In this document: positions 5,793 through 36,563 of the stretch, piece after piece
Numbering within the stretch: the stretch's first letter is position 1
Layout of the letters: each line of letters begins with the position of its first letter
Source: Acidobacteriota bacterium
GTDB taxonomy: Bacteria > Acidobacteriota > UBA6911 > RPQK01 > JAJDTT01
Assembly: GCA_028874215.1 (NCBI GenBank)
Contig: JAPPLF010000053.1
Span: 1 to 36,757, forward strand
Reading direction: 5' to 3'
DNA: 36,757 bases
Position numbers and translations under genes: made by a program
The notes under the pieces: generated by a model
What the model was told of the DNA's origin: nothing
Databases searched by the model: none
What the model saw: the letters and a program-made list of their open reading frames with translations, nothing else

Positions 5793-5862
5793 AGGGGAGT
5801 TCCAATCGCCCGGTTTCCTTCGTTCGCCGATGTCCAAAGAATCGGCGGTCAGGAAACCGCCG
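5793..5862 (-). repeat. REP pair: decayed B (+) and A (-) hairpins
   Basis: Positions 5843-5862 form an A-class hairpin read on the - strand (CGGCGGT, loop CAGGAA, ACCGCCG). Positions ~5793-5811 hold a worn B-class element that keeps only its right arm, AATCGCCC. The pair sits directly after the protease stop. Its geometry (51 nt between element starts on the - strand) matches the intact pairs elsewhere. Confidence 0.8.
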
Positions 5863-6000
5863 TTCCGCCATCTTGACTTTCCGGAAGGGCCCAAATTAGA
5901 ATCCGGCCCTGGAGTCTTGGCCGGCGCCTGTTGGCTGATGGGGCGCCCCGGAGCGAAAAACGGCGGCCGGACTCCTCCTCATCGATCAAAGCAGACGACA

Positions 6001-6887: not shown

Positions 6888-6960
6888 GGGGCGGTTTTCA
6901 ATCGGCCTTTCTTGCGTCGCTACGGTGAAATGCGGAAGATCGGCGGTTGGGAAACCGCCG
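6888..6960 (-). repeat. REP pair: degenerate B (+) and perfect A (-)
   Basis: Positions 6941-6960 are a perfect A hairpin in - orientation (CGGCGGTT, loop GGGA, AACCGCCG). A worn B element (GGGCGGTTTTCAATCGGCC) starts at 6888. Read on the - strand, the two starts are 53 nt apart, the same distance as in intact composite elements elsewhere. Confidence 0.85.
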
Positions 6961-7310
6961 CCCCTCCCCCCCCCACAGAGGACGGGTGAGGCCGCCGGGT
7001 TCCCACCCTGATTCTGCGAAGCACATGTACTTCCGGCGACCTCACCCGATCCAGTCGAAGACGGAGTCTCGGGTCCTTTTCCCAAAGCAACTTCGGGGCC
7101 AAACCCGGTCCGGGAGGCGCGAGCCATCCATCAGATCCGGCCTTTGCTGGTAAACTGGCGGAAGGTTGCTGCGGCCGGAACGTGACTCCGGACCGGGAGT
7201 TGTTCCCTGGCCGGGGGCTCGTTCCAATAAATGTCTTTTTGCGGCGAAGACATCGACCGGCCCTTGGAAAATCAGACCGAAATCGACTTTTCTTTAGACT
7301 TTCAGACGGC
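6961..7310. other. 350-bp intergenic region with one long inverted repeat
   Basis: No credible gene is present. CGGGTGAGG at 6983-6991 is the exact inverse of CCTCACCCG at 7040-7048. A smaller GGGT/ACCC hairpin lies inside, so the stretch could form a branched stem. The remainder, up to the sigma-factor start, must hold that gene's promoter. I could not identify a convincing -35/-10 pair. Confidence 0.45.
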
Positions 7311-10857: not shown

Positions 10858-10920
10858 GGGCTGGGGGGCGGCGGTTTCCTAACCGCCGATTCTTTAGGAG
10901 TGACCCAGACCGGTAGGGGC
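10838..10920 (+). repeat. A-class REP hairpin flanked by a 24-bp direct repeat
   Basis: The perfect hairpin CGGCGGTT-TCCT-AACCGCCG lies at 10869-10888. Near-identical direct repeats flank it: 10838-10861 (GAGTGACCCAG ... GTAGGGGC) and 10898-10920 (same ends, one base shorter), 60 bp apart. The left copy encodes the last residues of GspE, so the duplication probably arose with insertion of the hairpin. Confidence 0.8.
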
Positions 10921-12215: not shown

Positions 12216-12236
12216 GAAAAATCAGAGGAGGTGCTC

Positions 12237-12692
12237 GTGAGACGGACAGTCGGCAATCCGGTCAAGGTCATGGAAACGGAAGACAGGAAACGGAATCGGG
12301 GGTTCTCGCTGATTGAGCTCATCGTGGTGCTGGTGATCCTGGGACTTCTGGCCACGGTGGTGGGTCCCAAGGTGATGGAGCGCCTGGGCCGGGGCAAGAG
12401 CGAAATCGCCAAGCTCCAGATCGACCAGTTCGAAGGCGCCCTGGGGCTCTTTCGTTTTGACGTGGGCCGCTACCCCACCTCGTCCGAAGGCCTCACCAGC
12501 CTGCTGGAGAATGCCGGCCTCCACAATTGGAGCGGCCCCTACCTGGACAAGCGGACCCTCCCCAACGACCCCTGGGGCCGTGAGTACCAGTACCGCTCGC
12601 CGGGTCAGTACGGAGACTACGACCTCTGGAGCTGGGGCGCGGACGGCGTGGAAGGAGGCGAATCCGACAGCGCCGACGTCACCTCATGGTAA
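12237..12692 (+). CDS. gspG: Major pseudopilin GspG
   Basis: GspG is the main subunit of the T2SS pseudopilus. It has the prepilin cleavage site RG^FSLIELIVVLVILGLLATVV and the GspG core with SSEGLTSLLENAG, WSGPYLDK, NDPWGREYQYRSPG and DLWSWGADG, a typical calcium-binding C-terminus. GTG 12237 has a strong AGGAGG 5 nt upstream and gives a 22-residue leader. The internal ATG at 12270 would give an 11-residue leader, closer to the family norm. The gene ends where a REP pair begins. Confidence 0.92.
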   Translation: MRRTVGNPVKVMETEDRKRNRGFSLIELIVVLVILGLLATVVGPKVMERLGRGKSEIAKLQIDQFEGALGLFRFDVGRYPTSSEGLTSLLENAGLHNWSGPYLDKRTLPNDPWGREYQYRSPGQYGDYDLWSWGADGVEGGESDSADVTSW

Positions 12693-12699
12693 GGGGGAG

Positions 12700-12743
12700 C
12701 GGCGGTTTCCAGCCGCCGAAGGAACGGCGGTTTCCAACCGCCG
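12700..12743 (+). repeat. Tandem pair of A-class REP hairpins between gspG and gspH
   Basis: Two same-strand A hairpins lie at 12700-12718 (CGGCGG, CCGCCG) and 12725-12743 (CGGCGGTT-TCC-AACCGCCG). A tail reading AAAGCGAAGCGC follows. The same dimer plus tail recurs between gspK and gspL, so one probably copies the other. Confidence 0.85.
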
Positions 12744-12769
12744 AAAGCGAAGCGCTCCCGCAACGCATC

Positions 12770-13261
12770 ATGACCCACGCCAATACCCCTGACCCCTCCG
12801 GCTTCACCCTGGTCGAGATCCTCGTCCTCCTGGTCATCATGGGCCTGGCGGCCATGCTGATCCTTCCGTCCTTCACCTCCGGCCTCCAGGGCCTGGAGCT
12901 GGAGGCCGCCTGCCGCGATCTGGCGACGCACATGAAGCGGGCCCGTTTCGAGGCCATCGGCCGCCACACCGTCCGCCGCATCATCGTGGCCCAGGACGAC
13001 ATGGGACTCGGCTACTACGTCCTGGCCAACGAGTTCGGAGAGCAGATCGGCAGCGTGGTTCTCCCGGACGGAATCGTGCCCCGCACCATCGACCAGGCAC
13101 CGCTGCCGTGGCGGGTCAACTTCTACTCCAACGGCCGCAGCTCGGGCGGCGCCATCGGCCTGGTCAACCGGCAGGAAAAGCGCCTCTACGTCACCGCCGA
13201 CCCCGTCACCGGCCTGGCCAAGGTGTCGCCGATCCTCGTATCGCAGGGGAGGCCGAGGTGA
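12770..13261 (+). CDS. gspH: Minor pseudopilin GspH
   Basis: This 163-residue protein has a prepilin signal with cleavage SG^FTLVEILVLLVIMGLAAMLI and an 11-residue leader from ATG 12770. The rest matches GspH/FimT: LEAACRDLATHMKRARFEAI, FYSNGRSSGGAIGL and a C-terminal strand region. It is thought to sit at the pseudopilus tip with GspI, J and K. An in-frame ATG at 12686, overlapping the gspG stop, would be coupled to gspG. Using it would translate the whole REP pair into a 28-residue extension. Confidence 0.85.
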   Translation: MTHANTPDPSGFTLVEILVLLVIMGLAAMLILPSFTSGLQGLELEAACRDLATHMKRARFEAIGRHTVRRIIVAQDDMGLGYYVLANEFGEQIGSVVLPDGIVPRTIDQAPLPWRVNFYSNGRSSGGAIGLVNRQEKRLYVTADPVTGLAKVSPILVSQGRPR

Positions 13262-13263
13262 GG

Positions 13264-13767
13264 ATGAAATCCGGCCGCATGAAAACCGCCGCTCCATGCC
13301 GCCGCTCCCATGCGGGATTCACCCTCCTGGAAGTCCTGGTCGCGGTCTCCATTCTCGGCTTGGGCGTCGCCGTCACCATGCAGACCTTCTCGGGTGGCCT
13401 GAAGAACGTCCGGCGGATCGATCTCGCCCATCAGGCCATGGGACACGCCGAGAACATCATGAACCGCCTGCTCAGCGACGAGGACCTGGTGGGCCCCATC
13501 CAACTGGACGGCAACCTGGACGACGAGTTCGACTACACGGCCACGGTGGACTTCTGGGACCCACCTCGAAGGGGCCTCTCCCTGGAGATCGCCCTCCCGC
13601 CCGTGAACCTCCTGCTGGTGGAAGTCCGGGTGCGCTACAAGAACGACAGCCGCGGCAAGTTCTACACCGCCCGCTGCCTCAAGCTGGTCCCCGATCCCAA
13701 CGCCGCCCCGGGGAACCGGGGAGGATCTCAAAGTGAAATGGAAAGGATCCTCCGTGGCGGAAGATAA
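13264..13767 (+). CDS. gspI: Minor pseudopilin GspI
   Basis: This 167-residue protein has the prepilin motif AG^FTLLEVLVAVSILGLGVAVTMQ. The order (after GspH, before GspJ) and the GspI-like segment (IDLAHQAMGHAENIMNRLL, VDFWDPPRRGLSLEI) support the call. The start is 2 nt after the gspH stop with GAGG upstream. ATG 13279 would shorten the leader. Codons for KTAAP in the leader (13281-13293, AAAACCGCCGCTCC) match the right arm of a REP A hairpin. The 3' end overlaps gspJ by 35 bases. Confidence 0.82.
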   Translation: MKSGRMKTAAPCRRSHAGFTLLEVLVAVSILGLGVAVTMQTFSGGLKNVRRIDLAHQAMGHAENIMNRLLSDEDLVGPIQLDGNLDDEFDYTATVDFWDPPRRGLSLEIALPPVNLLLVEVRVRYKNDSRGKFYTARCLKLVPDPNAAPGNRGGSQSEMERILRGGR

Positions 13768-14503
13768 AGGAGCGGCGGTTTTCCTACCGCCGCAAGCGGA
13801 GCGTCCCGGAGACGCCGGCTTCACCCTCATGGAACTCGTCGTCGCCTTCACCATTCTGGGACTGGTGGCCGGCATCGTTTTCTCCTCCTTCCGCCTGGCG
13901 CTCAACAGCTACCAGAAGAGCCAGACCCGCCTGGAGGAGGAGGCGGCCGAGAGAATCCTCGGCGACCAGGTCAAACGCCAGGTCGCGTCCCTCTACCCCC
14001 TGCGCCCGGTGGCCCCGCCGGACCGAACGGGGTTGGGCCCGGTGGAATCTCCCACCCGCTTCCAGACGCCTCTCTTCTTCGGCACCCCCGATTCGGTCAC
14101 CTTCATCACCGTGGCGCCGCTGGTCATGCATGAGACGCCGGGACTGACGGTGGTCCGCTACGGACTGGCCGAAGACGAGTACGGAGACCGCTACATGGGC
14201 TCCATGGAGGCCCAGTTCGTGGGCCTGGACAGCTTCAACGCCATGGTCCGGATCCCGGGCGGGAAGCCGCTTCCCCTGATCCGGGGCATCGACGCGCTGG
14301 AGTTCCAGTACTACGGGTACGACCCCCGCCAGCGGGCGTTCGCCTGGTTCTCCGAATGGCTGGGAGAGGAAATGCAGTCCGTGCCTCGGGCCATCCGCAT
14401 CGTTCATAACAGAGGGGAGGTCTTCGCCTCCGTCAACGCCAGCTTCATCGGGCGGCGGGGAAGGTCGAACCGGGTGTTCGGAACGGCGGGGGATCAACAA
14501 TGA
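13733..14503 (+). CDS. gspJ: Minor pseudopilin GspJ
   Basis: This 256-residue protein has the prepilin motif AG^FTLMELVVAFTILGLVAGIVFSS, cleaved after Gly29 when started from GTG 13733 (GGGGAGGA 7-8 nt upstream). GTG 13754 is an alternative. The mature part shows GspJ-like features (DQVKRQVASLYP, TFITVAPLV, LEFQYYGYDP, PRAIRIV). A complete REP A hairpin at 13773-13792 is translated as roughly residues 14-20 of the leader, the part removed by the prepilin peptidase. The stop overlaps the gspK start (ATGA). Confidence 0.85.
   Translation: MKWKGSSVAEDKGAAVFLPPQAERPGDAGFTLMELVVAFTILGLVAGIVFSSFRLALNSYQKSQTRLEEEAAERILGDQVKRQVASLYPLRPVAPPDRTGLGPVESPTRFQTPLFFGTPDSVTFITVAPLVMHETPGLTVVRYGLAEDEYGDRYMGSMEAQFVGLDSFNAMVRIPGGKPLPLIRGIDALEFQYYGYDPRQRAFAWFSEWLGEEMQSVPRAIRIVHNRGEVFASVNASFIGRRGRSNRVFGTAGDQQ
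13773..13792 (+). repeat. A-class REP hairpin inside the gspJ leader codons
   Basis: The hairpin CGGCGGT-TTTCCT-ACCGCCG lies within the reading frame of gspJ. It is followed by CAAGCGGAGCG, a version of the AAGCGAAGCG tail that follows the REP pairs at 12743 and 15554. Confidence 0.85.
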
Positions 14504-15504: not shown

Positions 15505-15509
15505 GGGAG

Positions 15510-15554
15510 CGGCGGTTTTCCTACCGCCGCAGGAACGGCGGTTTCCAACCGCCG
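15510..15554 (+). repeat. Tandem pair of A-class REP hairpins between gspK and gspL
   Basis: Hairpins lie at 15510-15529 (CGGCGGT-TTTCCT-ACCGCCG) and 15536-15554 (CGGCGGTT-TCC-AACCGCCG), followed by AAAGCGAAGCGC. Order, spacing and tail match the gspG-gspH pair. Confidence 0.87.
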
Positions 15555-18395: not shown

Positions 18396-18407
18396 GGAGG
18401 GGGGGGG

Positions 18408-18466
18408 CGGCGGTTTCCTAACCGCCGATTCTTATATCCCATGCGAATCACGCGATTAAAAATCGC
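18408..18466 (+). repeat. REP pair: A (+) and worn B (-) between gspC and gspD
   Basis: A perfect A hairpin lies at 18408-18427. A B-class hairpin, GCGATT-aaa-AATCGC, lies at 18452-18466. The gap is shorter than in intact units because part of the spacer is missing. The pair occupies most of the 134-bp gap before gspD. Confidence 0.85.
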
Positions 18467-18529: not shown

Positions 18530-21295
18530 ATGCGTGTGTTGATCGCAGTGGTTGTAATTCTTTTCAGCGGGAGCGAACTCTTCGTCGCTGCACAGCGCGT
18601 CGGCTTCGCTCAGCGTTCCGGGACCACCCGGCAGACGGGTCAGGAGCCGTTGATCGTCGATGACGGCGCTCCCCCGGCGTCCGGCTCGAGGTCCGGCGCG
18701 CAGGACGCGCTCCAAAAGCGCCGGGAGGCGCTTCAGAAGGTGTACGGAAGACAGGGACAGGGGGCTTCGGGCGGCTCCGGGGCGGCCACCGCGGCGGGGT
18801 CCTCTCGCGATGAGCCGCGGACCCCGACCTCGGCCGGGAACCGGGCAAGGCGCTCCGGCAACGGAAACGGAGGAGTCAAGCTGGCCTTCACCGACATGCC
18901 CATCGACCGGGTGGTGAACGCCGTCATGACCGAGCTGGGCTACTCCTACGTCATCGACCCGGCTGTCTCCGGAACGGTCAGCCTGTTCACCATGGACGAC
19001 ATCCCCAAGAAGACCCTCTTCCGGGTCCTGGAGCAGGTGCTCAAGCTGTCCGGTCAGGCCATCGTCAAGCAGGAGGGGATCTACGTCGTCCTGCCCATCG
19101 GCAAGAGTCCGCGCGTGCCGCACAAGATTCTGGCCCGGCCGCCTGTTTCCGGCACGAGCCCGGCCGTCCCCGCTCCGCTCCAGGAGAAGACCGGCGCCCG
19201 GGAGGAGGAACCCGAGACCGCGCCTCCCGGGCGGGAATCCCCCGAGTCCGCTCCCTCGGAAGGCGCCGTGAGGGTGGTGTCTCCGGGGGGAACCGCTCCC
19301 GCGCCGGGAGCGGCTCTCTCCGGAGAGACGGCAACCCCCGCCACGACCCTGCTCTCTCAAGAGGAAGGGTCTGCCGCGGCGGAACAGGCGACCGCCTCGC
19401 AGGCCGCTCCCGGCCCCACCGTACTGACACCGGGGGAGTCGGAGGAGGCCCTCCGGCTGGAGGACGAAGAGGGCATCATCACTTACGTCATCCCCCTCCA
19501 CTACCTGCCCTCCGAAGACATGATCGAGATCGTGCAGCCCTTCGTCTCCGAGGGGGCCACTGTGGTCAACCTGGTCTCGGTCAACATTCTCCTCATCACC
19601 GACTACCGCCGGAACATCCAACAGGCGCTGAACCTGATCCGGATGCTGGACACCGAGTATTTCTCCATCAACACCGTCGATCTGATCACCATACGGCACA
19701 ACCACGCCGTGGACGTGGCCACAGACCTGAGTGCGGTCTTCTCTCCGAGTGAGAAGGGTGGCGGCGTGCGCATCGTCGCCATCGAGCGGCTCAACAGCAT
19801 CCTGGTGGTCACGCACGCGCCTGCGGTCCTGCAGGAGGTCAAGACCTGGGTGGCCAAGCTGGACACTCCTTCCACCAACACCAATCTCAAGACCTACGTC
19901 TACGAGGTCGAGAACAACACCGCCGCCTACATCGCCGACGTCCTGGGCCAGCTCTACTACCAGGGCATGGGCCTGCCCATGAGCGGCACCGATTCCACGG
20001 ACCCGCAGGCGGACGATCAACTCCGGCGGACTCCGACCCAGGACCCCGGCTTCCTCCGCCAGCAGCGGGGCTTCGGGGGCTACGGCGGCGGCTATGGCGG
20101 GTACGGCGGCGGTGGCTACGGGGGTTACGGTGGCGGCTATGGCGGGTACGGCGGCGGTGGCTACGGGGGTTACGGTGGCGGCTATGGCGGGTACGGCGGT
20201 GGGGGCTACGGAGGTTATGGCGGCGGCTATGGCGGGTACGGTGGTGGCATGGGCGGCGGTTACGGGAGGGGTTTGGGACCCTCCCTGATGGGGCGTTCCC
20301 TCAGCCGCCCGTCCGGTATCCGCGTCGTGAGTGCGGGAGATATCCGCATCGTCGTCAACGATTTCAGCAACTCGCTGATCATCCAGTCCACGGAGGCGGA
20401 CTACCGGTTCCTGCTGGACACCATCCGTCAACTGGACAAGCTGCCGCGCCAGGTTTTCATGGAGGCCCGGATCTACTCGGTGGAGTTGCGGGACGATCTC
20501 AGCTTCGGCGTGGCCGCCTTCCTCCGGGGCCGGCAGGCCGACGCCACGGGACCGGCCACCACCGGCAGCATCACCGGAGCCTCCGAAGGGAGCGGCGGAG
20601 GCGGCGCCCTGTCCATGGTCACCAAGGCCTTCATCGGGGCGCAAAGGGAGTTGGAGGCCGCTATCACCGCGCTCCGTTCCCGGACCAACGTGGAGATCCT
20701 GGAGGCCCCCACGCTGCTGGCGGTGGACGGCATGCAGGCCCGGATCAACGTGGGCGCCGAGGTCCCGGTCACGACCGCTTCCTACGGCGACCCCATCACC
20801 TCGGGAGTCGCCAGCGCCTTCGCCAACAGCATCAACTATCGTCCCACCGGGACTTCGCTCCTGATCATGCCCCGCACCAGCGCCAGCGGCATCGTGACCA
20901 TGGACCTGGCCATCGAGGTCAGCCAGGCGGCGGGTTCCTCACTCACCCCCACCATCAGCCAGAACTACGTGGAGACCTCCCTGATCGTCCGGGACGGCGA
21001 GACGGTGGCCATCGCGGGCATCATCAGCGACATCAGCGACCGCAGCCGCAACCGGATCCCCGTGCTGGGGGACATCCCGGTGGTGGGAGCCCTGTTCGGG
21101 CGGACTGCCAAGAGCAAGCGCCGGTCCGAGCTGGTCGTCTTCATCACGCCCCACGTCATTCACGGCCTGCCCACGGCCGTGGAGGTCACGCTGGACTTCA
21201 AACGGGCGCTCCGAAACGCCTACCACACCATCAACCGAAAGGACCAGGAACGACGCGACTTGATCCAGAGGCGCAGAAACGAAGAAGGGCACTGA
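18530..21295 (+). CDS. gspD: Type II secretion outer-membrane secretin GspD
   Basis: This 921-residue secretin forms the outer-membrane gate. A signal peptide (MRVLIAVVVILFSGSELFVAA) is followed by a disordered stretch, an N0/STN-like domain (about 115-193, VKLAFTDMPIDRVVNAVMTELG), a Pro/Glu/Ala-rich linker (about 200-310), N1/N2-type domains (YVIPLHYLPSEDMIEIVQPFV; VDLITIRHNHAVDVATDL) and a domain carrying a Gly/Tyr repeat insert. The secretin core follows (VPVTTASYGDP, GTSLLIMPRTSASGIVTMDL, VETSLIVRDGETVAIAGII, RIPVLGDIPVVGALFG). Both the linker and the insert make it longer than typical GspD (about 650-750). A Shine-Dalgarno AAGAGG lies upstream. A T4P PilQ origin is possible, but the operon argues for GspD. 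Confidence 0.93.
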   Translation: MRVLIAVVVILFSGSELFVAAQRVGFAQRSGTTRQTGQEPLIVDDGAPPASGSRSGAQDALQKRREALQKVYGRQGQGASGGSGAATAAGSSRDEPRTPTSAGNRARRSGNGNGGVKLAFTDMPIDRVVNAVMTELGYSYVIDPAVSGTVSLFTMDDIPKKTLFRVLEQVLKLSGQAIVKQEGIYVVLPIGKSPRVPHKILARPPVSGTSPAVPAPLQEKTGAREEEPETAPPGRESPESAPSEGAVRVVSPGGTAPAPGAALSGETATPATTLLSQEEGSAAAEQATASQAAPGPTVLTPGESEEALRLEDEEGIITYVIPLHYLPSEDMIEIVQPFVSEGATVVNLVSVNILLITDYRRNIQQALNLIRMLDTEYFSINTVDLITIRHNHAVDVATDLSAVFSPSEKGGGVRIVAIERLNSILVVTHAPAVLQEVKTWVAKLDTPSTNTNLKTYVYEVENNTAAYIADVLGQLYYQGMGLPMSGTDSTDPQADDQLRRTPTQDPGFLRQQRGFGGYGGGYGGYGGGGYGGYGGGYGGYGGGGYGGYGGGYGGYGGGGYGGYGGGYGGYGGGMGGGYGRGLGPSLMGRSLSRPSGIRVVSAGDIRIVVNDFSNSLIIQSTEADYRFLLDTIRQLDKLPRQVFMEARIYSVELRDDLSFGVAAFLRGRQADATGPATTGSITGASEGSGGGGALSMVTKAFIGAQRELEAAITALRSRTNVEILEAPTLLAVDGMQARINVGAEVPVTTASYGDPITSGVASAFANSINYRPTGTSLLIMPRTSASGIVTMDLAIEVSQAAGSSLTPTISQNYVETSLIVRDGETVAIAGIISDISDRSRNRIPVLGDIPVVGALFGRTAKSKRRSELVVFITPHVIHGLPTAVEVTLDFKRALRNAYHTINRKDQERRDLIQRRRNEEGH
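20090..20250 (+). repeat. 45-bp in-frame tandem repeat encoding Gly/Tyr-rich insert in GspD
   Basis: Three near-identical 45-bp units start at 20090, 20135 and 20180, with a partial fourth from 20225. Each encodes GYGGYGGGGYGGYGG. Units 1 and 2 are almost identical at the DNA level, so recent slippage or unequal crossover is likely. The insert covers about residues 510-580. Confidence 0.93.
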
Positions 21296-21297
21296 AA

Positions 21298-22254
21298 ATG
21301 AGGCGCGCAGCGTCTGCCGCACTGTTGCTGGCCTGGCTCGGTCCGTCCGCCGCCTCAGCCGCATCTCCCCACCCGGTCCGCCTCGTCAAGACCGACGCGG
21401 CGCGGGTGGACATCTACGCCGGCGAGGCCCTGTTCGCCTCCTACCACTACGGCATCGGCCTGCACAAACCCATCCTCCATCCCCTGCGCAGTCCCGGAGG
21501 ACACCGGATCACCAGGGGATTCCCCATGGTGTTCGGCATCCCGGGCGAGCAGACCGACCACTGGCAACACGAAGGCGTCTTCCTCACCTACCGCAACGTC
21601 AACGGCGTTGACTTCTGGTCCAAGTTTCCCCCCACGCGAGACCGGCCCGGCAGCGGCCGGATCCGCCACACCGGCTTCACCCGCCTGGAGGACGGAGAAA
21701 AGGGCATCCTGGGGACCACTGCCGACTGGATCGCCCCCACCGGAAAAGTCCTGCTGAAACAGGATTCTCAAATGACCATCCGAGCCGGACCCGCCTGGCG
21801 AACCCTGGATCTTCAGATCACCCTGACCGCCCAGGAAGAGCCGGTCACCTTCGGCGACATCGAAGAAGGCCTGCTGGCCATCCGCGTCGCCTCCGGCCTG
21901 CGCGAAGACCGCACCGGCCGCTACCTCAACGCCGAAGGCCTGGAACTGGCGAAAAACGTCTGGGGCAAGAGGTCACCCTGGGTGGCCCTGCGCGGAACCG
22001 TCCGGGACGAGGACCTCACCCTGGCCATCCTGAACCACCCCCGCAGCGTCCGATACCCCACATACTGGCACGCCCGCGCCTACGGCCTCTTCGCCGCCAA
22101 CCCCTTCGGCCGCGCCGATTTCGAAAAGGGCGCTCCGCCCCTGAACTACTCCCTGTCCCCCGGCGAATCGGCCCTCCTCCTCTACCGCATCCTCATCCAC
22201 TCCGGCCACCTCACCCGCTCCCGGATCGAGGACGAGTTCCGCAAATACCGATAG
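21298..22254 (+). CDS. DUF6807 (PmoA-like) exported protein
   Basis: This 318-residue protein has a signal peptide (LLLAWLGPSAASAA) and the DUF6807 pattern: YHYGIGLHKPILHPLRSPGGHRITRG, a DHWQHEGVFL motif, DFW, HTGFTRLEDGEKG, then ILNHPRSVRYPTYWHARAYGLFAANPFG with an Asn-His pair. The family is often annotated as methane oxygenase PmoA, but that name is misleading; the biochemical role is not established. It begins 2 nt after the gspD stop and so is likely in the same transcript. Its 3' end overlaps the convergent RAYT frame by 44 bases. Confidence 0.75.
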   Translation: MRRAASAALLLAWLGPSAASAASPHPVRLVKTDAARVDIYAGEALFASYHYGIGLHKPILHPLRSPGGHRITRGFPMVFGIPGEQTDHWQHEGVFLTYRNVNGVDFWSKFPPTRDRPGSGRIRHTGFTRLEDGEKGILGTTADWIAPTGKVLLKQDSQMTIRAGPAWRTLDLQITLTAQEEPVTFGDIEEGLLAIRVASGLREDRTGRYLNAEGLELAKNVWGKRSPWVALRGTVRDEDLTLAILNHPRSVRYPTYWHARAYGLFAANPFGRADFEKGAPPLNYSLSPGESALLLYRILIHSGHLTRSRIEDEFRKYR

Positions 22255-22969
22255 CAGGGGCGGTTTTCCGACCGCCGCGTGTCGCACGCATAGGCCGTCG
22301 ATCGGCAAGCCGGCTCTCCTGCACCTTCTCGAAAAGGAGAAACTCCCCATCTCTCAACTCCGCTTTCTCCGGGTTCTCGCGGATGTATTCCAGACACTTC
22401 ATGAAATGCATCTCGTCCCTGATCAATCGGTCCCAATAATCCTTTTCCCAGAGCTTGCCCGACCTTCCGGTCGTCCGATTGATCTGACGAGCCGTAAACA
22501 GCTTCCAGGACCTTAAAATGTTTCCGAGCCGATGAGATCCAAGAGGTCTGAACAGCACATGAACGTGGTTGGGCATTACGACGAACGCGGCCAGTTCGTA
22601 TCGTTGGCCGTCAAAAAATCGCAGTGCGTCAGCGACGATCCTGGACAATGCGGGATCCCTGAGGATGCAGGACCCGCTGCCTTGATCCAAACAGTTGTCA
22701 ATCCGTCCGGAGAAACGTTTGCGGTAGCGTTTCGCCGTCTCAGAGTCCCAAGGTCGAGGATTTCGTTTCAACCAGAATTCGCGCTCCTCCCGCCACTGAG
22801 CCAGTTTGATTTGGGGAAGCGAATCTCCCAGCCGCCAAGTCACAAAAACGAATGTGTGATCCTGTTGCCAGTGGGGCAGGCGATTTTGGCGAACATCCCC
22901 GGGTCCATAGGGGTCGAAATAGAATCGGGAGCGCGTTCCTTGCCGAACATTTTCGGGATCACGTGACAC
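22211..22969 (-). CDS. REP-associated tyrosine transposase (RAYT, Y1_Tnp family)
   Basis: This 252-residue single-strand DNA nuclease/transposase is related to IS200/IS605 TnpA. It has the family opening NRLPHWQQDHTFVFVTWRL (residues 29-47), the HUH motif MPNHVHVLF (His135, His137), the LWEKDYWDRLIRDEMHF segment (173-189) and YIRENP (Tyr195, the likely nucleophile). I chose GTG 22969 because codons further upstream translate a REP element. The C-terminal end from about residue 225 reads through another REP (22259-22276) and into the convergent DUF6807 gene, so the natural end may once have been shorter. The gene sits between REP elements on both sides, the expected setting for the enzyme that mobilises them. 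Confidence 0.9.
   Translation of the reverse strand: MSRDPENVRQGTRSRFYFDPYGPGDVRQNRLPHWQQDHTFVFVTWRLGDSLPQIKLAQWREEREFWLKRNPRPWDSETAKRYRKRFSGRIDNCLDQGSGSCILRDPALSRIVADALRFFDGQRYELAAFVVMPNHVHVLFRPLGSHRLGNILRSWKLFTARQINRTTGRSGKLWEKDYWDRLIRDEMHFMKCLEYIRENPEKAELRDGEFLLFEKVQESRLADRRPMRATRGGRKTAPAIGICGTRPRSGSG
22259..22276 (+). repeat. A-class REP hairpin at the RAYT 3' end
   Basis: GGCGGT-TTTCCG-ACCGCC lies 5 bases past the DUF6807 stop and within the last codons of the RAYT frame. With the cluster at 23019-23222 it brackets the transposase gene. Confidence 0.8.
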
Positions 22970-23018
22970 ATAGTCCCAAACGCCACCAAAGCAAAAACAA
23001 CGAAATCGAAGGGGGGGG

Positions 23019-23222
23019 CGGCGGTTTCCTAACCGCCGAATCCCGAGCAACAGAAGAACAGGAGCAGTGCCGGGCGATTAGGAAATCGCCCTTCCAAACA
23101 CCGGGGCGGCAGTTTCCCAACCGCCGATTCCCGAGCAACAGGAAATCACGCGCAGCACCGGGCGATTAGGAAATCGCCCTTCCGAAGGAAAACACGCGCA
23201 GTACCAAGCGATTAGAAATCGC
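23019..23222 (+). repeat. REP cluster A-B-A-B-B next to the RAYT gene
   Basis: Hairpins lie at 23019-23038 (A+), 23072-23091 (B-), 23107-23126 (A+, one stem mismatch), 23160-23179 (B-) and 23208-23222 (B-, shortened loop). The A-to-B start distance is 53 nt in both pairs. The 33-nt spacers share ATTCCCGAGCAACAG-like heads and GCAG-like tails. The last hairpin provides the stop codon of the following - strand gene. Confidence 0.93.
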
Positions 23223-23664
23223 CGCTCCTGACGAGCTTCTGCGCGGAACGGTAGGTTTCGAGGGCTTCGTCCGTCTTGCCTTCGTCGCGGAAGACGCGGG
23301 CCTTGAACATGAGCAGCATGAACCGGTTTTCCTGCGCGTCGACGGCCTTCAGGCTGGCGTCCACCGCCTGGCGGGCCAGACCATGCTGGTCCGCGTTCAG
23401 CAGCTCCTCGCTCAGGTTCAGCACCGAGAGCGTCAGCACGCCTTCATTCTCGGCGCCGAAGCCCAGGTCCAGGATCTCCTGGATCTCCGCCACGACCGCA
23501 TCGTACTCGCCCGATTCGAGCTTGAGCTGGGCGATCTCGTAGTGGGTCGCGGCCGCCGCCAGCTTGGCGTTTTCCGCCGGGTTTGTCGCCACCGCGGTAA
23601 CGCCCCGGACCGGCGCCAATCCGAAAACCAGTAGAAATACGGAAAACCGGATCAGAGCGCTCAT
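23212..23664 (-). CDS. Small exported TPR-like protein of an ECF operon
   Basis: This 150-residue protein has a signal peptide (LIRFSVFLLVFGLAPVRGVTA) and helical repeats resembling TPRs (ATHYEIAQLKLESGEYDAVVAEIQEIL, FMLLMFKARVFRDEGKTDEALETYRSA). It is the last gene of the sigma/anti-sigma/TPR operon and overlaps the anti-sigma gene by 4 bases. Its final residues SGDF and the TAA stop lie in a B-class REP hairpin, so the original C-terminus may have been different. The function is unknown. A periplasmic partner in signal sensing is only a guess. Confidence 0.75.
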   Translation of the reverse strand: MSALIRFSVFLLVFGLAPVRGVTAVATNPAENAKLAAAATHYEIAQLKLESGEYDAVVAEIQEILDLGFGAENEGVLTLSVLNLSEELLNADQHGLARQAVDASLKAVDAQENRFMLLMFKARVFRDEGKTDEALETYRSAQKLVRSGDF

Positions 23665-29099: not shown

Positions 29100-29117
29100 A
29101 GACGGACCTTCGAGGAG

Positions 29118-29188
29118 GGGCGATTTCCAATCGCCCGTTCGTTGGTGGTAGATAGGCGCTCCGGAGTCCGGCGGTTGGGAAACCGCCG
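29118..29188 (-). repeat. REP pair: B (+) and A (-), an inverted composite unit
   Basis: The hairpin at 29118-29136 is GGGCGATT-TCC-AATCGCCC. The one at 29169-29188 is CGGCGGTT-GGGA-AACCGCCG. Read on the - strand this is A then B with 52 nt between starts. It lies between the convergent toxin gene and small membrane protein gene. Confidence 0.92.
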
Positions 29189-29194
29189 CTCGTG

Positions 29195-30422: not shown

Positions 30423-30452
30423 CACACCGGAATCGTAACAGGAGCGACGGAG

Positions 30453-30658
30453 CGACGACTTTCCTGTCGCCGGAGGGGCGGCGGTTTCCCAACCGCCGAT
30501 TCCCGAGCAGCGGGAAACCAGGAGCAAAGCCGGGCGATTAGGAAACCGCCCTTCCAAACACTGGGGCGGGGGCGGCGGTTTCCTAACCGCCGATTCCCGA
30601 GCAGCAGGAGAACAGGCGCAGTACCGGGCGATTAGGAAATCGCCCTTCCAATCGCCCT
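30453..30658 (+). repeat. REP cluster A'-A-B-A-B between glycosyltransferase and LRR genes
   Basis: Elements are 30453-30472 (variant A with changed but still pairing arms, one mismatch), 30479-30498 (A+), 30532-30551 (B/A hybrid), 30573-30592 (A+), 30626-30645 (B-) and a half B at 30647-30658. A-to-B start distance is 53 nt in both pairs. The spacers share ATTCCCGAGCAGC heads with those at 23 kb. Confidence 0.93.
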
Positions 30659-30672
30659 TCCTTCCCTCTCCC

Positions 30673-33600
30673 CTATCGACTCCAATCCTCCGCCGCCGGA
30701 ATCCCGCGACTCGTCAGCACTTCCATTCCCGGCTCCGCCGCCAACGCGGACACGGCATCGTCCCCGCTCCCGTCCTCTGGCGCCGGACCCCGAAAAATCC
30801 CCCGGATCTCCCCCGTCCGCGGATCCCGCAGGATGCTCACCGGCCGGTCGGTCTCCTCATCCAACCGGACCGACCCTCCCGGCCCCGACAGCGTGATGCC
30901 GGCCAACTCGCCGGCCCATCCGGCCCGCACGGGCAGAACAAACGCGAACGACGACCTCCCGTCCCCGTCGGCCAGCTCCGGCATGGCGAAGCTCAACGAA
31001 AACAACTCCTCCCCGTCCCCGTCCCTCCCCGTAATCTCATACTCCCCGCCGGACCGCGGAAGCCGCGCCGGAGCATCCACCACGAACGCCGGCTCCAGGT
31101 ACGGAGTCCCGTCGGACCCGACGCCGCCCCAAAGCAGGAGGCTCTTCGCCGGCGCCGCCACCAGCGCGGACCCCTCGGCGCTGCCTGCGGCGTACAAGCG
31201 GTAACGGAGCGCGTTGGTGAAGTGATAAGCGCCGATCCACTGGGCCTCGGTGCGGCAGTAGGCCATCAGATCCGGCCAGACCGGCGGAAACACCCGCCCA
31301 GGCTCGATGAGATCGTATCCCCAGTCGCCGATGGAACCGTCCATCTGCGGAAACGCCGGATCCAGCGCGGCCGGCGCGCCGCAGGGCGCATGGGCCAGGC
31401 TCAAGTTGTGGCCCAGCTCATGCGCCATGATCACCGGATGGGGTATGGAGAAACTGATCAGGCCGGGTCGTTGGCCCAAACCGGCGAGACCACCGGTGAA
31501 CTCGCCTCCAATCGTGCCCATGTAGTACCCACCAGCCCCTTCCATGGCATGGATGATTGCGGTTTCGCCGAACAGCGACACGGGGTCGTTGGTCGAGGTC
31601 GACACGGGCGCATGGGCCTTGACGTCGAGTTCCTTTATGGGCAGCAGCGCCCGTGTCTCCTTGAGCAGGGGATGGGCCCCGGGGTCACCGGCCATGCCTT
31701 CGGCCAATTCCACGATCGACGAATCCGGATTCTCATCCCATAGGAATGGAATCACGGTCAGATCGAAGACGGGCATCGTCCGGACGTCGACCGCCAGGCG
31801 GCCGCTCTCCGGGATCCGCTTCGTCACGCCCGCATCGGGACCCGGCGTTCCCTCCGGGTCGACGTCGATCACCATCTCCAATCCCGGTTGCACCACCGAA
31901 CCGGGCACCAGAACGTTGGCGGAGGCGTTCAGATCCCCTTCGTAAAACTCTCCCGGAATCGGAACCGGCTTCCCCGGAATGTCCACCACGTGCGTCATCG
32001 TCCCGTTCCGATAAAAAGTGGCCCGGACCGGAGGGAGATCCGACCCGGTCCCGCGGTCCGGTTCCACGAACACCCGGAGCAGGGCTTCCTCTCCCGCCAC
32101 CAGCGGCACCGGGAATTCTCGCGACTGGACGGCCTGAGTCAGGATCACGTCCGGTGGATCGCCGGCGCCGCAGATCCCGATCCGCCGTTTCCAGACGCCG
32201 GACAGCCAATCCCGAAACCCGGCGTCCGAAGGTGCGCAGAGGTTCGCGCCGTTGGCCAGAAGTTCCTCCAGCCGGCCGAGATCCGTCAGCCGGGCGGGCA
32301 ACGCTCCGGTCATCCCGCCGTTATTCGAGAGCACGATGCTGCGCACATTCTCCAATCCACCGAATTCCGGCGGGACGGCGCCCGTCAGTTCATTGTCCTG
32401 CATCCGAAGGAACTCCAGCTTGGTCAGTTTCCCCAGTTCCGGCGGAAGGGCGCCCGACAGGGCGTTCCCTTCGAACCACAGCCCTTCCAGGTTGCCGAGG
32501 GCGCCCAGTTCCGGCGGGATGGAGCCGGTCAGATCATTCCAGGCGAGATCCAGCGTCTTCAGACTGGCGAGCGACCCCAACTCCGCCGGGATCGATCCCG
32601 TCAAGCCGTTGGCCCGGAGCCACAAGTTCTCCAGGTTGGCGAGTGCGCCGAGTTCCGGGGGAATCGGGCCGGACAGGGAGTTTCCCCTGATCCACAAATC
32701 CCTCAAGTTGGTGAGCGCGCCCAACTCCGGCGGGATGGAGCCGGTCAGGCCGGTCAAGTCCAGGTTCAGGTCCGTCAGGTTGGCGAGCGACCCCAACTCT
32801 GCCGGGATCCCTCCCGTAAACATGTTGCCGAAGAGCCGCAACGTCTCCAGGTTGGAGAGTGCGCCCAGTTCCGGCGGGATCGGCCCGGTCAGCCGGTTGT
32901 AGTCGAGGTTCAGGTGGATGAGCTCGGCGAGCGAGCCGAGTTCCGGCGGGATGGGACCCGTCAAGGCATTGTAGCCGAGATTCAGATCCGTCAAGCGGGT
33001 GAGCGAGCCCAGTTCCACCGGGATCGTTCCTGTCAAGTTGTTGTTCCCGAGATACAACGTAACCACGCGCCCGTCGTCGTTGACTCCGACGCGGCGCCAT
33101 TCCTTCAGGGGACGGTCCGTCATCCAGTTATCCCGCAGGGTCCAGTGCGGACCCCCGGTCGCATCGAACAGCACCGACAGGATTTCCCGGTCCGACGGAG
33201 GCGGACAATCCGTGCCCGTCCCCTCGTGAGACGGTATGCCGCTCATCCACGCCCGGAACGATTCCCCGGCCGGGACACAGAGATCGGTGTCCGCGTAGTG
33301 GAATTCCTGAAGCGAAGTGAGTGAAGACAGGGACAGGGGCAGGCGGCCGGAGAGGGCGTTGCCGCCGATCCTCAGCTCGGTCATCTGCCGCAAACTCCCC
33401 AAGTTGCCGGGAACCCGCCCCTCCAGTCCGTTGCCGGCCAGGTCGAGCGCCGTGACCCGGCCCAGGGAATCGACGCTGACTCCGTGCCATTCTCCCAACG
33501 TTCCTTCTCCGCGCCACCCGTCCGAGTTCGTCCAGTCCGGCCCGCCGGTGATTTCGAAGAACGCCTCCAGCACCGCCCTGTCCGACTCGTTGCAGTACGC

Positions 33601-36507
33601 CCTGCCGTGAAGCACCTCGATTTCGCTCGACCAGGCCGTGAAATCGGGGCTTCCGGGTATGCAGAGACCTCCGTTCTGTGCGATCCGGAACTCCTCCAGG
33701 TCCATCGCCAGGAGGCTTTCCGGCAGCGGTCCGGTCAGGCGGTTCCAGTCCAGAAACAGGAACCGCAGTCCGGCAGCCGACCCCAGTTCAGTTGGAACCG
33801 GTCCGGTCAGGCGGTTGAGGCGTAGAGACAAGTTCCACAGCTTGGCCAGCGCACCGAGTTCGGGCGGGATCGCATCCGTCAACTGATTGCGGGAAAGCCA
33901 CAAATGCTCCAATTCGGCGAGCGAGCCCAATTCCGGCGGGATCGAGCCCGTCAGTCTGTTGCGGTCGAGTCTGAGGGTATTCAAGTTGGCGAGATCGCCC
34001 AGTTGAGGCGGAATCGAACCCACCAGAAAATTGTTCTGGAGCGACAATTGCTCCAGTTTGGCGAGATCGCCCATGCCTGGCGGGACGGGACCGGTGAGGG
34101 CGTTGTCGCTCAGGTCGAGGGTCCTCAAGCTTGAAAGTGAATTCAGCTCCACCGGAATCGGGCCGGTGAGGAAGTTGCTCTGCAGGCTGAAAGACGTCGC
34201 CTCGGCCAGTGAACCGAGTTCGGGCGGGATCGGCCCCGTCAGGTTGTTTCCATTCAGGCCGAGGCTCGTCAGGTTGCCGAGGGACCCCAGTCCCGGTGGT
34301 ATCCGCCCGGAGAGTTGATTGTCGATGAGACTGAGAAGTTCCAGATTGGCGAGCGAACCCAGACCGGGCGGGATCGGCCCCGTCAGGGCATTTCCCCCGA
34401 GCTCCAGGGTTTCCAATCTGACGAGGGACCCCAGTTGAGGCGGGATCGGCCCGGTCAACTCATTGTTCCCGAGCGCGAGAGACGTCAGGTTGACGAGCGA
34501 ACCCAGTTCCGCCGGGACCGGTCCCGTCAGGGCATTGCCGCTGAGATCGAGGGTCGTCAGGTGAGTCAGGGCGCCCAGTTCCGGCGGGAACTCGCCCGCC
34601 AGCCCATTGTCCCTGAGGACCAACCGGGTGACGCGCCCCCCGGCATCGACATCCACCCCGTGCCATTCCCCGAGCGGGCGGCCGGTCCCCCAGTTCCCGC
34701 TGTCGGTCCACCCGGACCCGCCGGCGAACTCGTAGAGAGCCGTCAACGCGGCCTGCTCGGAAACCACCACCCCCACCGTGACCGACGCCGTCTGCGTCCG
34801 TCCGACGGCGTCGCGCACGGTGATCCGATACGTCGTCGTGGCCCGCGGCGACACCGGCCGCGATCCCGACGCCGGCACCGCACCGATGTCCGGCGTGATC
34901 TCCGCACCGACCGCGTTCGTCGAAGACCAGGTCAACGTGGCGCTCTCACCCCAATCGATGGAACCCGGCGAAACCGACAGCTTCACCGTCGGGGGAGGCG
35001 CCACGCCTCCGCTGGCCCCGTCTCCGTCCATGACCCGCACCGCCGGCACCGACGAGAGGGAATGGCTCGTCTTTCCGAACCGCAGTCCCAGTGGAGCGAA
35101 TGGCGAATCGTCCTCGCTTCGAAGGAAGAGCAGACCCCGAAAGTCCGCCAGGAACCCCGTATCCACTCCTTCCGCGCCGAGCCATTCCGGGAGCGTTCGC
35201 GCCAGTTGCCGAAAGTTTCCGTGGTTGATGAACACCCCCTCCAACGGGTCGTTCCCCTCTTCATCCCGAACCCGCAGCTCCACGGTCGAAGCGGCGTCCG
35301 GTTTGAAGATGGCCACTCCGGCGCCGATCGCCGGCGACTCCTCCACGAACAGGGCGAACTGGCTTCCCAGCTCCACCGGTTGCACGCTCACCTCAACACC
35401 CGTCCCGGCCTGCCGGTAGGTCAACAACCCGCTGACCGCCGCCGACTCGGACTCCACCTCGATCCAGCCCCGCCGGATCGCCCCGGCGCCGGCGCTCTTC
35501 AGCACCCGGCTGCCCAACGACGGAATCAGGAACGCCGGTTCCACATCGAACAGATCCCGGACCGGCCGGCCCTCCTCGTCGAAGACTTCCACGCTCACCG
35601 ACGCAGAGGCTTCCGTAGCGATGTTGCTGAGCGCCAACTGCACCGACCAGCCGCTTCCGTCCACGTAGTCCGGAAAGTAAAGGGTCGTCTCCGTCGGTTC
35701 CTGCACCTCGTCCCGGATCGCCGGCACCGACGAGAGTGATTGGTTCCGCTTTCCGAACCGCAGCCCCAGCGGAGAAAATCTCGACTCGTCCTCGCCACTC
35801 AGGAACAAAAGACCCCGGAAGTCCTTCAGAAATCCCCGGTCGATCCCCTCCGCGTCGAACCATTCGGGCAGCGTGCGCGCCGACTGGTGAAAGTTCCCGT
35901 GGGACACGATCCCACCGTCCAGCGGGTCGTTCCCCTCTTCGTCCCGGACCCGGAGCCGGATGCTCGACGACGCCTCCGGCTTGAAGACCGCCACTCCCGC
36001 TCCGACTTCGTCCGTCTCCTCCACGAACAGCGCGAAACGCCCGTCCAGCCCGGCCGGCTCCACGCTCACCTCGATCCCCGTCGTCCCCTCCTTGTAGGTC
36101 AACAGTCCGCTGACCGAGTCCGTACGGGCGCGGACCTGGATCCAGCCGCGCCGGATCGCCCCCGCGCCCGAGCTCCGCAACACCCGGCTGCCCAAGGCGG
36201 GAATCTCGAAAGTCAAACCCGACTCGAACAGATCCGGTACGGGCCGGCCCTCCTCGTCGTAGACCTCAACCACAACCTCGGCTCCCGCATCCGGATCGAC
36301 ATTGCTGAGCGCCAACTGCACCGACCATCCGCCACCGTCCACATAGTCGGGAAAGTAGAGAACCGTCTCCTCCGCTTCCTGATTCTGATTCCGGATCGTC
36401 TCCCGGACTTGGAGTTGGGCCTTCTCCGGCCCCTCGGCAGGCGACTGACTCGAAAACGAGGCCGCTAAAAACAAAAAGGCAAACAACGGAACCAAAATCT
36501 TCCTCAT
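30673..36507 (-). CDS. Giant exported LRR protein with C-terminal metzincin-like protease motif
   Basis: This 1944-residue protein starts at the ATG giving a signal peptide (ILVPLFAFLFLAASFSSQSPA). An upstream ATG at 36591 would translate a REP. Two 226-residue tandem domains begin near residues 46 and 271 (LYFPDYVDGGGWSVQLALSN and LYFPDYVDGSGWSVQLALSN), followed by an Ig-like domain (about 505-585). Three LRR blocks of 24-residue units of the LGSLxNLxxLxLxxNxLTGPIPPE type follow, each opened by a GGxxWT..NW cap. Block 1 has about 12 units, block 2 is short and block 3 has about 10. The C-terminal part contains MAHELGHNLSLAH (His1696, Glu1697, His1700, His1706), the HExxHxxxxxH zinc motif. 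It is a plausible T2SS substrate. The target is unknown. Confidence 0.88.
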   Translation of the reverse strand: MRKILVPLFAFLFLAASFSSQSPAEGPEKAQLQVRETIRNQNQEAEETVLYFPDYVDGGGWSVQLALSNVDPDAGAEVVVEVYDEEGRPVPDLFESGLTFEIPALGSRVLRSSGAGAIRRGWIQVRARTDSVSGLLTYKEGTTGIEVSVEPAGLDGRFALFVEETDEVGAGVAVFKPEASSSIRLRVRDEEGNDPLDGGIVSHGNFHQSARTLPEWFDAEGIDRGFLKDFRGLLFLSGEDESRFSPLGLRFGKRNQSLSSVPAIRDEVQEPTETTLYFPDYVDGSGWSVQLALSNIATEASASVSVEVFDEEGRPVRDLFDVEPAFLIPSLGSRVLKSAGAGAIRRGWIEVESESAAVSGLLTYRQAGTGVEVSVQPVELGSQFALFVEESPAIGAGVAIFKPDAASTVELRVRDEEGNDPLEGVFINHGNFRQLARTLPEWLGAEGVDTGFLADFRGLLFLRSEDDSPFAPLGLRFGKTSHSLSSVPAVRVMDGDGASGGVAPPPTVKLSVSPGSIDWGESATLTWSSTNAVGAEITPDIGAVPASGSRPVSPRATTTYRITVRDAVGRTQTASVTVGVVVSEQAALTALYEFAGGSGWTDSGNWGTGRPLGEWHGVDVDAGGRVTRLVLRDNGLAGEFPPELGALTHLTTLDLSGNALTGPVPAELGSLVNLTSLALGNNELTGPIPPQLGSLVRLETLELGGNALTGPIPPGLGSLANLELLSLIDNQLSGRIPPGLGSLGNLTSLGLNGNNLTGPIPPELGSLAEATSFSLQSNFLTGPIPVELNSLSSLRTLDLSDNALTGPVPPGMGDLAKLEQLSLQNNFLVGSIPPQLGDLANLNTLRLDRNRLTGSIPPELGSLAELEHLWLSRNQLTDAIPPELGALAKLWNLSLRLNRLTGPVPTELGSAAGLRFLFLDWNRLTGPLPESLLAMDLEEFRIAQNGGLCIPGSPDFTAWSSEIEVLHGRAYCNESDRAVLEAFFEITGGPDWTNSDGWRGEGTLGEWHGVSVDSLGRVTALDLAGNGLEGRVPGNLGSLRQMTELRIGGNALSGRLPLSLSSLTSLQEFHYADTDLCVPAGESFRAWMSGIPSHEGTGTDCPPPSDREILSVLFDATGGPHWTLRDNWMTDRPLKEWRRVGVNDDGRVVTLYLGNNNLTGTIPVELGSLTRLTDLNLGYNALTGPIPPELGSLAELIHLNLDYNRLTGPIPPELGALSNLETLRLFGNMFTGGIPAELGSLANLTDLNLDLTGLTGSIPPELGALTNLRDLWIRGNSLSGPIPPELGALANLENLWLRANGLTGSIPAELGSLASLKTLDLAWNDLTGSIPPELGALGNLEGLWFEGNALSGALPPELGKLTKLEFLRMQDNELTGAVPPEFGGLENVRSIVLSNNGGMTGALPARLTDLGRLEELLANGANLCAPSDAGFRDWLSGVWKRRIGICGAGDPPDVILTQAVQSREFPVPLVAGEEALLRVFVEPDRGTGSDLPPVRATFYRNGTMTHVVDIPGKPVPIPGEFYEGDLNASANVLVPGSVVQPGLEMVIDVDPEGTPGPDAGVTKRIPESGRLAVDVRTMPVFDLTVIPFLWDENPDSSIVELAEGMAGDPGAHPLLKETRALLPIKELDVKAHAPVSTSTNDPVSLFGETAIIHAMEGAGGYYMGTIGGEFTGGLAGLGQRPGLISFSIPHPVIMAHELGHNLSLAHAPCGAPAALDPAFPQMDGSIGDWGYDLIEPGRVFPPVWPDLMAYCRTEAQWIGAYHFTNALRYRLYAAGSAEGSALVAAPAKSLLLWGGVGSDGTPYLEPAFVVDAPARLPRSGGEYEITGRDGDGEELFSLSFAMPELADGDGRSSFAFVLPVRAGWAGELAGITLSGPGGSVRLDEETDRPVSILRDPRTGEIRGIFRGPAPEDGSGDDAVSALAAEPGMEVLTSRGIPAAEDWSR

Positions 36508-36543
36508 TTCAATACCCCCGACATCAAGAATCTCCCCTGGGAG

Positions 36544-36563
36544 CGGCGGCATTCCTGCCGCCG
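36544..36563 (+). repeat. Compensated variant of the A-class REP hairpin
   Basis: CGGCGGC-ATTCCT-GCCGCCG keeps a full 7-bp stem although the last pair is C-G rather than T-A. The tail AACAAGCGAAGTGACCC resembles the tails of other solo A elements. It lies just upstream of the LRR gene start. Confidence 0.8.

Follow-up and report, generated by a model that had tools for sequence, protein, structure and literature searches.

The stretch of DNA analysed here, referred to as the window, comprises 36,757 nucleotides from an Acidobacteriota bacterium (contig JAPPLF010000053.1 of assembly GCA_028874215.1; host assembly size 5.7 Mb). It contains a gene for a REP-associated tyrosine transposase (RAYT) and numerous short hairpins in the gaps between genes (table 1). 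The original prediction of a complete RAYT with HUH and YIRENP motifs was borne out by the reading frame, by both motifs, and by the protein's matches to Pfam Y1_Tnp and, by sequence and by fold, to Escherichia coli TnpAREP (4er8). Y1_Tnp, with 28.5 bits (cut-off 23), was the sole Pfam domain found in the protein, and NCBIfam REP_Tyr_transpos was the best of all models (E = 7e-21, 74.6 bits, cut-off 80). The top PDB match was 4er8 both by sequence (E = 0.002) and, using a predicted model with pLDDT 86.8, by fold (Foldseek, E = 5.2e-6, rank 1). The catalytic residues were invariant across 60 aligned relatives, and the features of RAYT membership were found, namely a Y1 core with HUH and a single Tyr, and the Y---NP motif of class 2.

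The open reading frame (22211-23050, minus strand) is longer than the RAYT and begins at a TTG at 23050. Because its first 27 codons read through a REP, the start was placed at the GTG at 22969; in the two syntenic orthologues the protein begins at an ATG that aligns with this GTG, so the TTG is not the likely start. The frame is open through this upstream REP and through a degenerate downstream REP, which is oriented as the upstream arm A and is not inverted; flanking REPs of other RAYTs have been reported as inverted (PMC2817692). At 22211-22277 the 3' end of the RAYT frame overlaps the end of the convergent gene at 21298-22254, and the orthologues stop earlier. The flanking REPs recur in many copies elsewhere in the genome, in agreement with the prediction that the RAYT is embedded among REP hairpins of its own. 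Assignment as a TIRYT was rejected, the flanks being tagged REPs and not long terminal inverted repeats, and Y1_Tnp being the only domain found in the protein, where a C-terminal HTH is usual for TIRYTs.

Table 1. REP, REPIN and RAYT features of the window (positions counted from the first nucleotide of the window).
Feature	Position	Strand	Details or basis
Single REP, class A	5843..5866	(-)	model R1
Single REP, class A	6941..6964	(-)	model R1
Single REP, class A, GGGG tag	10865..10888	(+)	model R1
Two direct REPs, GGAG and GGAA tags	12696..12743	(+)	model R1
Single REP, TTTCCT loop, GGAG tag	13769..13792	(+)	model R1
Two direct REPs, GGAG and GGAA tags	15506..15554	(+)	model R1
Single REP, class A, GGGG tag	18404..18427	(+)	model R1
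RAYT gene, 252 aa	22211..22969	(-)	GTG start by alignment; Pfam, NCBIfam, PDB 4er8
Degenerate REP read through by 3' end of RAYT ORF	22256..22277	(+)	core match, sequence
YIRENP, Tyr195 catalytic by homology	22370..22387	(-)	Tyr and Asn invariant; aligned with YIYINP of 4er8
Putative tag-reading segment Arg181-His188	22406..22429	(-)	aligned with E. coli His101-Asp108; covaries with tag type
HUH motif NHVH (His135, His137 of 252-aa protein)	22559..22570	(-)	both His invariant, 60 aligned sequences
REPIN 1	23015..23095		GGGG arm A 23015-23038 (+), 33-nt spacer, GGAA arm B 23072-23095 (-)
REPIN 2	23103..23183		arm A variant 23103-23126 (+), arm B 23160-23183 (-)
Degenerate B-like hairpin beside REPIN 2	23206..23225		sequence
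REPIN 3	29114..29192		GGAG arm B 29114-29136 (+), arm A 29169-29192 (-)
Single REP, variant stem	30449..30472	(+)	model R1
REPIN 4	30475..30555		arm A 30475-30498 (+), arm B variant 30532-30555 (-)
REPIN 5	30569..30649		arm A 30569-30592 (+), arm B 30626-30649 (-)
Single REP, CGGCGGCATTCCTGCCGCCG, GGAG tag	36540..36563	(+)	model R1

The RAYT is present in one copy, and no second copy was found in the host genome; an unrelated, weak Y1_Tnp protein is encoded elsewhere in it (L011, G000:C11:16328-16603, 24.3 bits). Compared with the syntenic orthologues, dN/dS was approximately 0.22-0.31, indicating purifying selection, with a dN of 0.19-0.22 that exceeded that of most neighbours (0.04-0.10 for the immediate ones). 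Other RAYTs likewise evolve faster than neighbouring genes (PMC2817692). GC3 was 0.60 in the RAYT versus 0.71-0.92 in its neighbours. The Y1_Tnp domain would also suit an ordinary insertion sequence of the IS200/IS605 type, the hairpins then being its ends and MITEs derived from it. This reading is scarcely credible, given the single copy, a score of 23.3 bits against the IS200 model (cut-off 55), the class 2 motif Y---NP in place of the Y---Q of IS200 (PMC6006769), and the conserved chromosomal position.

Hairpins were searched for with a covariance model, R1, built from 25 diverse hairpin examples; its stem covariation only illustrates the stem and was not used as evidence, because the sequences were chosen to be hairpins. 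With filters off, 21 tagged hairpins were detected in the window at E<=0.01, all outside called genes, which agrees with the predicted count of more than twenty in its gaps. Core matches far exceeded those in Markov-shuffled controls (0-5 each). The hairpins abound outside the window as well, so that one condition named as refuting the prediction, their absence from the rest of the genome, does not hold: across the genome, class A was found at 211 sites on both strands with up to three mismatches (97 exact; reversed-pattern control, 9) and class B at 41 sites (18 exact; control, 0). A sample of 822 kb, which includes contigs picked for class A richness so that its density is biased upward, yielded 149 core copies of several stem classes, among them CGGCGACWTTCCTGTCGCCG, GGGGGACTTTCCTGTCCCCC and CGGCGGCTTTCYTGCCGCCG besides A and B; genome-wide counts beyond this sample rest on pattern and model searches. 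Four exact class A copies lie in the window, where 0.6 would be expected at the average density of the genome. A dependence of REP density on the RAYT was nevertheless rejected, as contig C15 has a 20-kb stretch that lacks a RAYT and yet exceeds the dense window in REPs per length.

Repeats of other kinds were also noticed in the window: a long family of 72-bp tandem repeats inside a 1972-codon ORF (32347-34623), a Gly/Tyr-rich short repeat (20048-20293) in the ORF at 18530-21295, and four adjacent ORFs (12230-14503) with a common N-terminal repeat, D9, that resembles the N-termini of type IV pilins and pseudopilins.

For the analysis of the hairpin foot, the 149 core hairpins were selected by stem and loop only, not by flank. 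In the orientation that gives a T-rich loop, the 5' tetranucleotide directly at the foot was GGAG in 81, GGAA in 29 and GGGG in 25 cores, together 135 of the 149, and no comparable sequence mirrored this tag on the other side of the hairpin. All stem classes bore the one-sided tag. GGAG followed by a 7-bp GC-rich stem occurred 108 times per Mb, versus 1-11 per Mb for five other tetranucleotides. The combination of GTAG with a stem occurred at 1.2 per Mb, and the canonical REP tag, GTAG/GTGG, is not the one carried here. The hairpins are extragenic, of high copy number and have a one-sided 5' tetranucleotide at the foot; they have the architecture of REPs with GGRR replacing GTRG. Since the tetranucleotides are GGAG, GGAA and GGGG, the hairpins were filed as a tag variant and not as GTAG REPs.

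Tagged hairpins lay outside called genes in 129 of 135 cases, in a sample that is 83% coding, by a simple custom gene caller that did not call the RAYT itself. REPs occurred in co-directional, convergent and divergent gaps.

Where adjacent hairpins were separated by less than 150 nt, the tags faced outward in 27 pairs; 20 of these combined A with B, 21 had a spacer of 30-34 nt, and other arrangements were fewer. Because the tags-outside A+B pairs have a regular spacer, A and B are taken to be the arms of one REPIN/BIME. The predicted two-class organization thus stands as far as both motifs are real and occur genome-wide, but A and B are not two independent REP systems: they are asymmetric REPIN arms, accompanied by stem subfamilies. 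A REPIN query gave 59 matches in the genome. The closest were other copies in the window (89-94% identity), whereas the best full-length dispersed copies reached 85-89%, and no near-identical pair of REPINs at distant loci was found in the genome. Activity of the REPINs may for this reason be low or past, and a recent burst, with dispersed full-length copies at no more than 89%, was not supported. Tandem REPIN arrays with a period of approximately 82-86 bp were observed at G000:C6:48449-48870 and G000:C33:1-223.

The RAYT was found in all three congeners (E<=3e-101), and in G001 and G002 the genes on either side of it are those that flank it in the window. The three congeners have the same GGAG tag with other stems, for example GGCGAC-TTTCTT-GTCGCC in G002. 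At least 65-91 R1 matches were obtained in each of the four congeneric genomes; in 145 more distant genomes there were 22 in one RAYT-bearing relative at class level and 0-5 in each of the other 144. These counts agree with the expectation that relatives without the RAYT also lack the repeats, but the comparison is confounded: as all four congeneric genomes carry both, it does not isolate the need of the REPs for the RAYT. At gene gaps common to the window and G002, REPs were present in the window only in 6, in G002 only in 2, in both in 4 and in neither in 13; REP positions have turned over between congeneric genomes. The predicted dense REP mobilization thus has indirect support from the turnover at shared gaps, but dispersed copies similar enough to indicate recent spread were not found.

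Two other accounts of the hairpins bear on these data. In the first, they are terminators or mRNA-stabilizing hairpins, selected and copied by recombination, with the RAYT as an incidental neighbour. Such a role would fit their intergenic location and the fact that hairpins remain identical among REPIN copies while the spacers diverge; we judge it improbable, as no T-run follows the hairpins, the tag is one-sided, hairpins are also found in co-directional and divergent gaps, and neither inverted pairs of fixed spacing nor lineage-specific stems with a common tag would be expected. In the second, the REPs were left behind by a different RAYT that has since been lost, and the present one has another substrate or none. 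The foreign-looking composition of the RAYT, its high dS and the lack of any sign of a recent burst speak for this possibility, which is unlikely, if slightly less so than the first, because the RAYT adjoins REPINs, has positional orthologues in two sister genomes, evolves under purifying selection and has tree neighbours whose loci are GGAG-tagged.

The best explanation is a REPtron with its REPIN population, to which we assign a probability of roughly 0.85. The gene, its motifs and fold, the tag, the inverted-pair geometry, the intergenic location, the genus-wide co-occurrence, the turnover of REPs and the selection on the RAYT are directly established, and the RAYT would be the binder, cutter and spreader of these REPs; the hundreds of hairpins were probably spread by this single RAYT. 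In the proposed mechanism, one chromosomal, vertically inherited RAYT, an HUH/Y1 single-strand DNA transposase, would recognize single-stranded REPs in which a 5' GGAG (or its GGAA and GGGG variants) directly precedes a hairpin of 7-8 bp whose loop is T-rich. The mobile unit, the REPIN, would consist of two inverted REPs with tags outward, approximately 32 nt apart. The RAYT would presumably cut beside the hairpin with the tag as guide, and REPINs would be copied or moved into intergenic single-stranded DNA, for instance at replication forks. In the model for E. coli and IS608, the tag acts as guide and the single strand is cut beside the hairpin (PMC8266576). By analogy, the same is proposed here; GGAG retains bases 3-4 of the tag (AG), the proposed chooser of the CT cut site, and differs at base 2 alone.

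The system shares with E. coli TnpAREP (yafM; 4er8; PMC8266576, PMC2817692) the Y1/HUH fold and motifs, the single copy and the flanking REPs, and with E. coli REPs and BIMEs the inverted pairs, the two arm types (cf. Y and Z2) and the 5' tetranucleotide at the foot. It differs in its tag (GGAG/GGAA/GGGG in place of GTAG), in a perfect short stem without a bulge, in having Arg and His where E. coli has His101 and Asp108, and in belonging to another phylum. Like the REPINs of Pseudomonas fluorescens (PMC3116915), those of the host are inverted doublets that appear to be the replicating unit, form tandem clusters, are mostly extragenic and include a cluster beside the RAYT, but they have a GGAG tag, a spacer of approximately 30-34 nt and differing arms A and B. 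The GTAG REP superfamily with its HH dimers (PMC3733652) is similar in that a tag accompanies a stem of 6-9 bp, the stems form subfamilies related by compensatory changes, the dimers have their tags outside and several phyla are represented; its tag degeneracies are GYAG, GYRG, GTRG, GTMG and GTGG, and GGAG is absent from the text of that paper.

By its NHVH, W and Y---NP motifs, low copy number, flanking REPs and occurrence in patchy phyla, the RAYT resembles TnpAY1 class 2, subclasses 2.7 and 2.4 (PMC6006769), yet YIRENP fits neither YI[LR][NQ]NP nor YIxNNP exactly, and the REPs of those subclasses are tagged GT[AG]G. TnpAY1 class 3 of Acidobacteria and Planctomycetes (PMC6006769) likewise combines high-copy hairpins of non-GTAG foot with an adjoining Y1 gene, but has a Y----Q motif, a CnGA foot and a different class of protein. 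REPs, RAYTs and REPINs have been published across several phyla (PMC2817692, PMC3116915, PMC3733652, PMC6006769), including GTAG REPs in Verrucomicrobia and Planctomycetes and tyrosine transposases in Acidobacteria (PMC3733652, PMC6006769). The prediction of a REP system outside the enterobacteria and pseudomonads thus holds for this genome, but not as a novelty, other phyla having been reported (PMC3733652, PMC6006769). A literature search that covered few subscription papers found no paper with GGAG together with RAYT and REP. It is the GGAG tag that is a new variant within RAYT/REPIN systems, and not the occurrence of such a system outside the gammaproteobacteria.

The distribution of tags was analysed in a set of 102 RAYT loci (80 named loci plus relatives). 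The commonest repeated tetranucleotides at hairpin feet emerged unprompted as GGAG and then GTAG. Tag labels were assigned heuristically, those of the window and L014 from genome-wide evidence for GGAG, and 72 loci were classifiable, 38 as GGAG and 34 as GTRG. Repeated long perfect palindromes, such as GGAGTGTCGACCTGGGGTCGACACTCC, were noticed at the RAYT locus L102. On a tree computed with the tag-reading columns left out, whose bootstrap had not settled, the label required 9 changes, at least 4 of them on well supported branches, compared with 24 for shuffled labels. The most informative alignment column was that of His188 of the window RAYT, with His in 37 of 38 GGAG loci and 3 of 34 GTRG loci (Fisher p = 8e-16; Pagel test, p = 3e-7). 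The Arg181 column came second, with Arg in 34 of 38 GGAG loci and His in 28 of 34 GTRG loci (8e-11 and 4e-4, respectively), and the second Gln of LPHWQQ was a further informative position. An independent-pairs test on supported branches lacked power, as it could draw on just four pairs.

Arg181 aligns with E. coli His101, which is listed among the residues involved in GTAG recognition (PMC6006769, PMC8266576), and His188 with Asp108. Arg181 alone was rejected as the determinant of the tag, as Arg occupies this column in 5 of 34 GTRG loci too and has been described there together with GTAG in the literature; in the alignment, His188 appears as the cleaner column. The covariation suggests a part for residues 181 and 188 in the recognition of base 2 of the tag.

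In about 40 of the 102 loci, the RAYT lay in an open frame of at least 420 aa, some of which, e.g. that of L096, resemble chance frames. Most of these frames had a recognizable host protein on both sides, joined by REP-encoded peptides. Judged from the reading frames, about a third of related loci have the RAYT nested in frame within a host gene, possibly the bigger result. Several host-gene assignments were made by eye, while Pfam confirmed LeuRS, CarB, XseA, PriA, HsdR, an SNF2 helicase (the Y1 domain itself being under the Pfam threshold in this case), a class I tRNA synthetase, adenosine deaminase, Eco57I-type methylases, a DUF1156 protein and acetyl-CoA synthetase. The carriers were L050, L053, L055 and L078 for LeuRS; L070, L081, L086 and L089 for CarB; L042-L044 for HsdR; L098, L101 and L111 for PriA; L088 for XseA; L062 for the class I tRNA synthetase; L025 for acetyl-CoA synthetase; and L015-L017, L058, L061, L076, L083, L095, L103 and L107 for type IIG-like methylases. 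The nested RAYT domains keep the HUH and Tyr motifs, with peptides encoded by REPs on either side.

LeuRS and CarB each had one recurrent RAYT site, in four genomes each. The LeuRS insert lies between residues 364 and 377 (T. thermophilus numbering), and the remainder of the enzyme aligns. A LeuRS query matched nothing but the RAYT-bearing gene in each of the four genomes with the LeuRS insert. For CarB, the extra matches in its four carrier genomes were the second half of the same gene and a 99-aa fragment in G155. Because most carriers are metagenome-assembled genomes (MAGs), other copies of the host genes may be missing from the assemblies; carriers were also found among records not labelled as MAGs (L083, L093). 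Genes that contain REPs and keep their frame open have been published (PMC3733652, PMC6006769). No description of whole RAYTs inside essential genes was found in the literature searched. In a published survey, members longer than expected were set aside as fusions or errors of annotation (PMC6006769).

A broader reading, which we hold tentatively and at somewhat less than even odds, is that the tag code of the RAYT family switched repeatedly between GTRG and GGAG, accompanied by corresponding changes in a few residues of the tag-binding segment (E. coli His101 and Asp108 positions), and that in many lineages the REPtron became an in-frame passenger domain in single-copy, often essential proteins (LeuRS, CarB, PriA, HsdR), so that the host could not easily lose it. 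The stand-alone copy of the window, with its frame open through REPs at both ends, would be one state of such an element. Tag recognition, and the way in which tag and enzyme change together, has so far been a hard question to ask, since the class 2 REPs published with RAYTs hardly vary in their GTRG tag; a sister tag of the same architecture, with a short list of covarying residues, makes recognition directly testable. Nested RAYTs, if confirmed, would represent a new means of persistence for a domesticated transposase.
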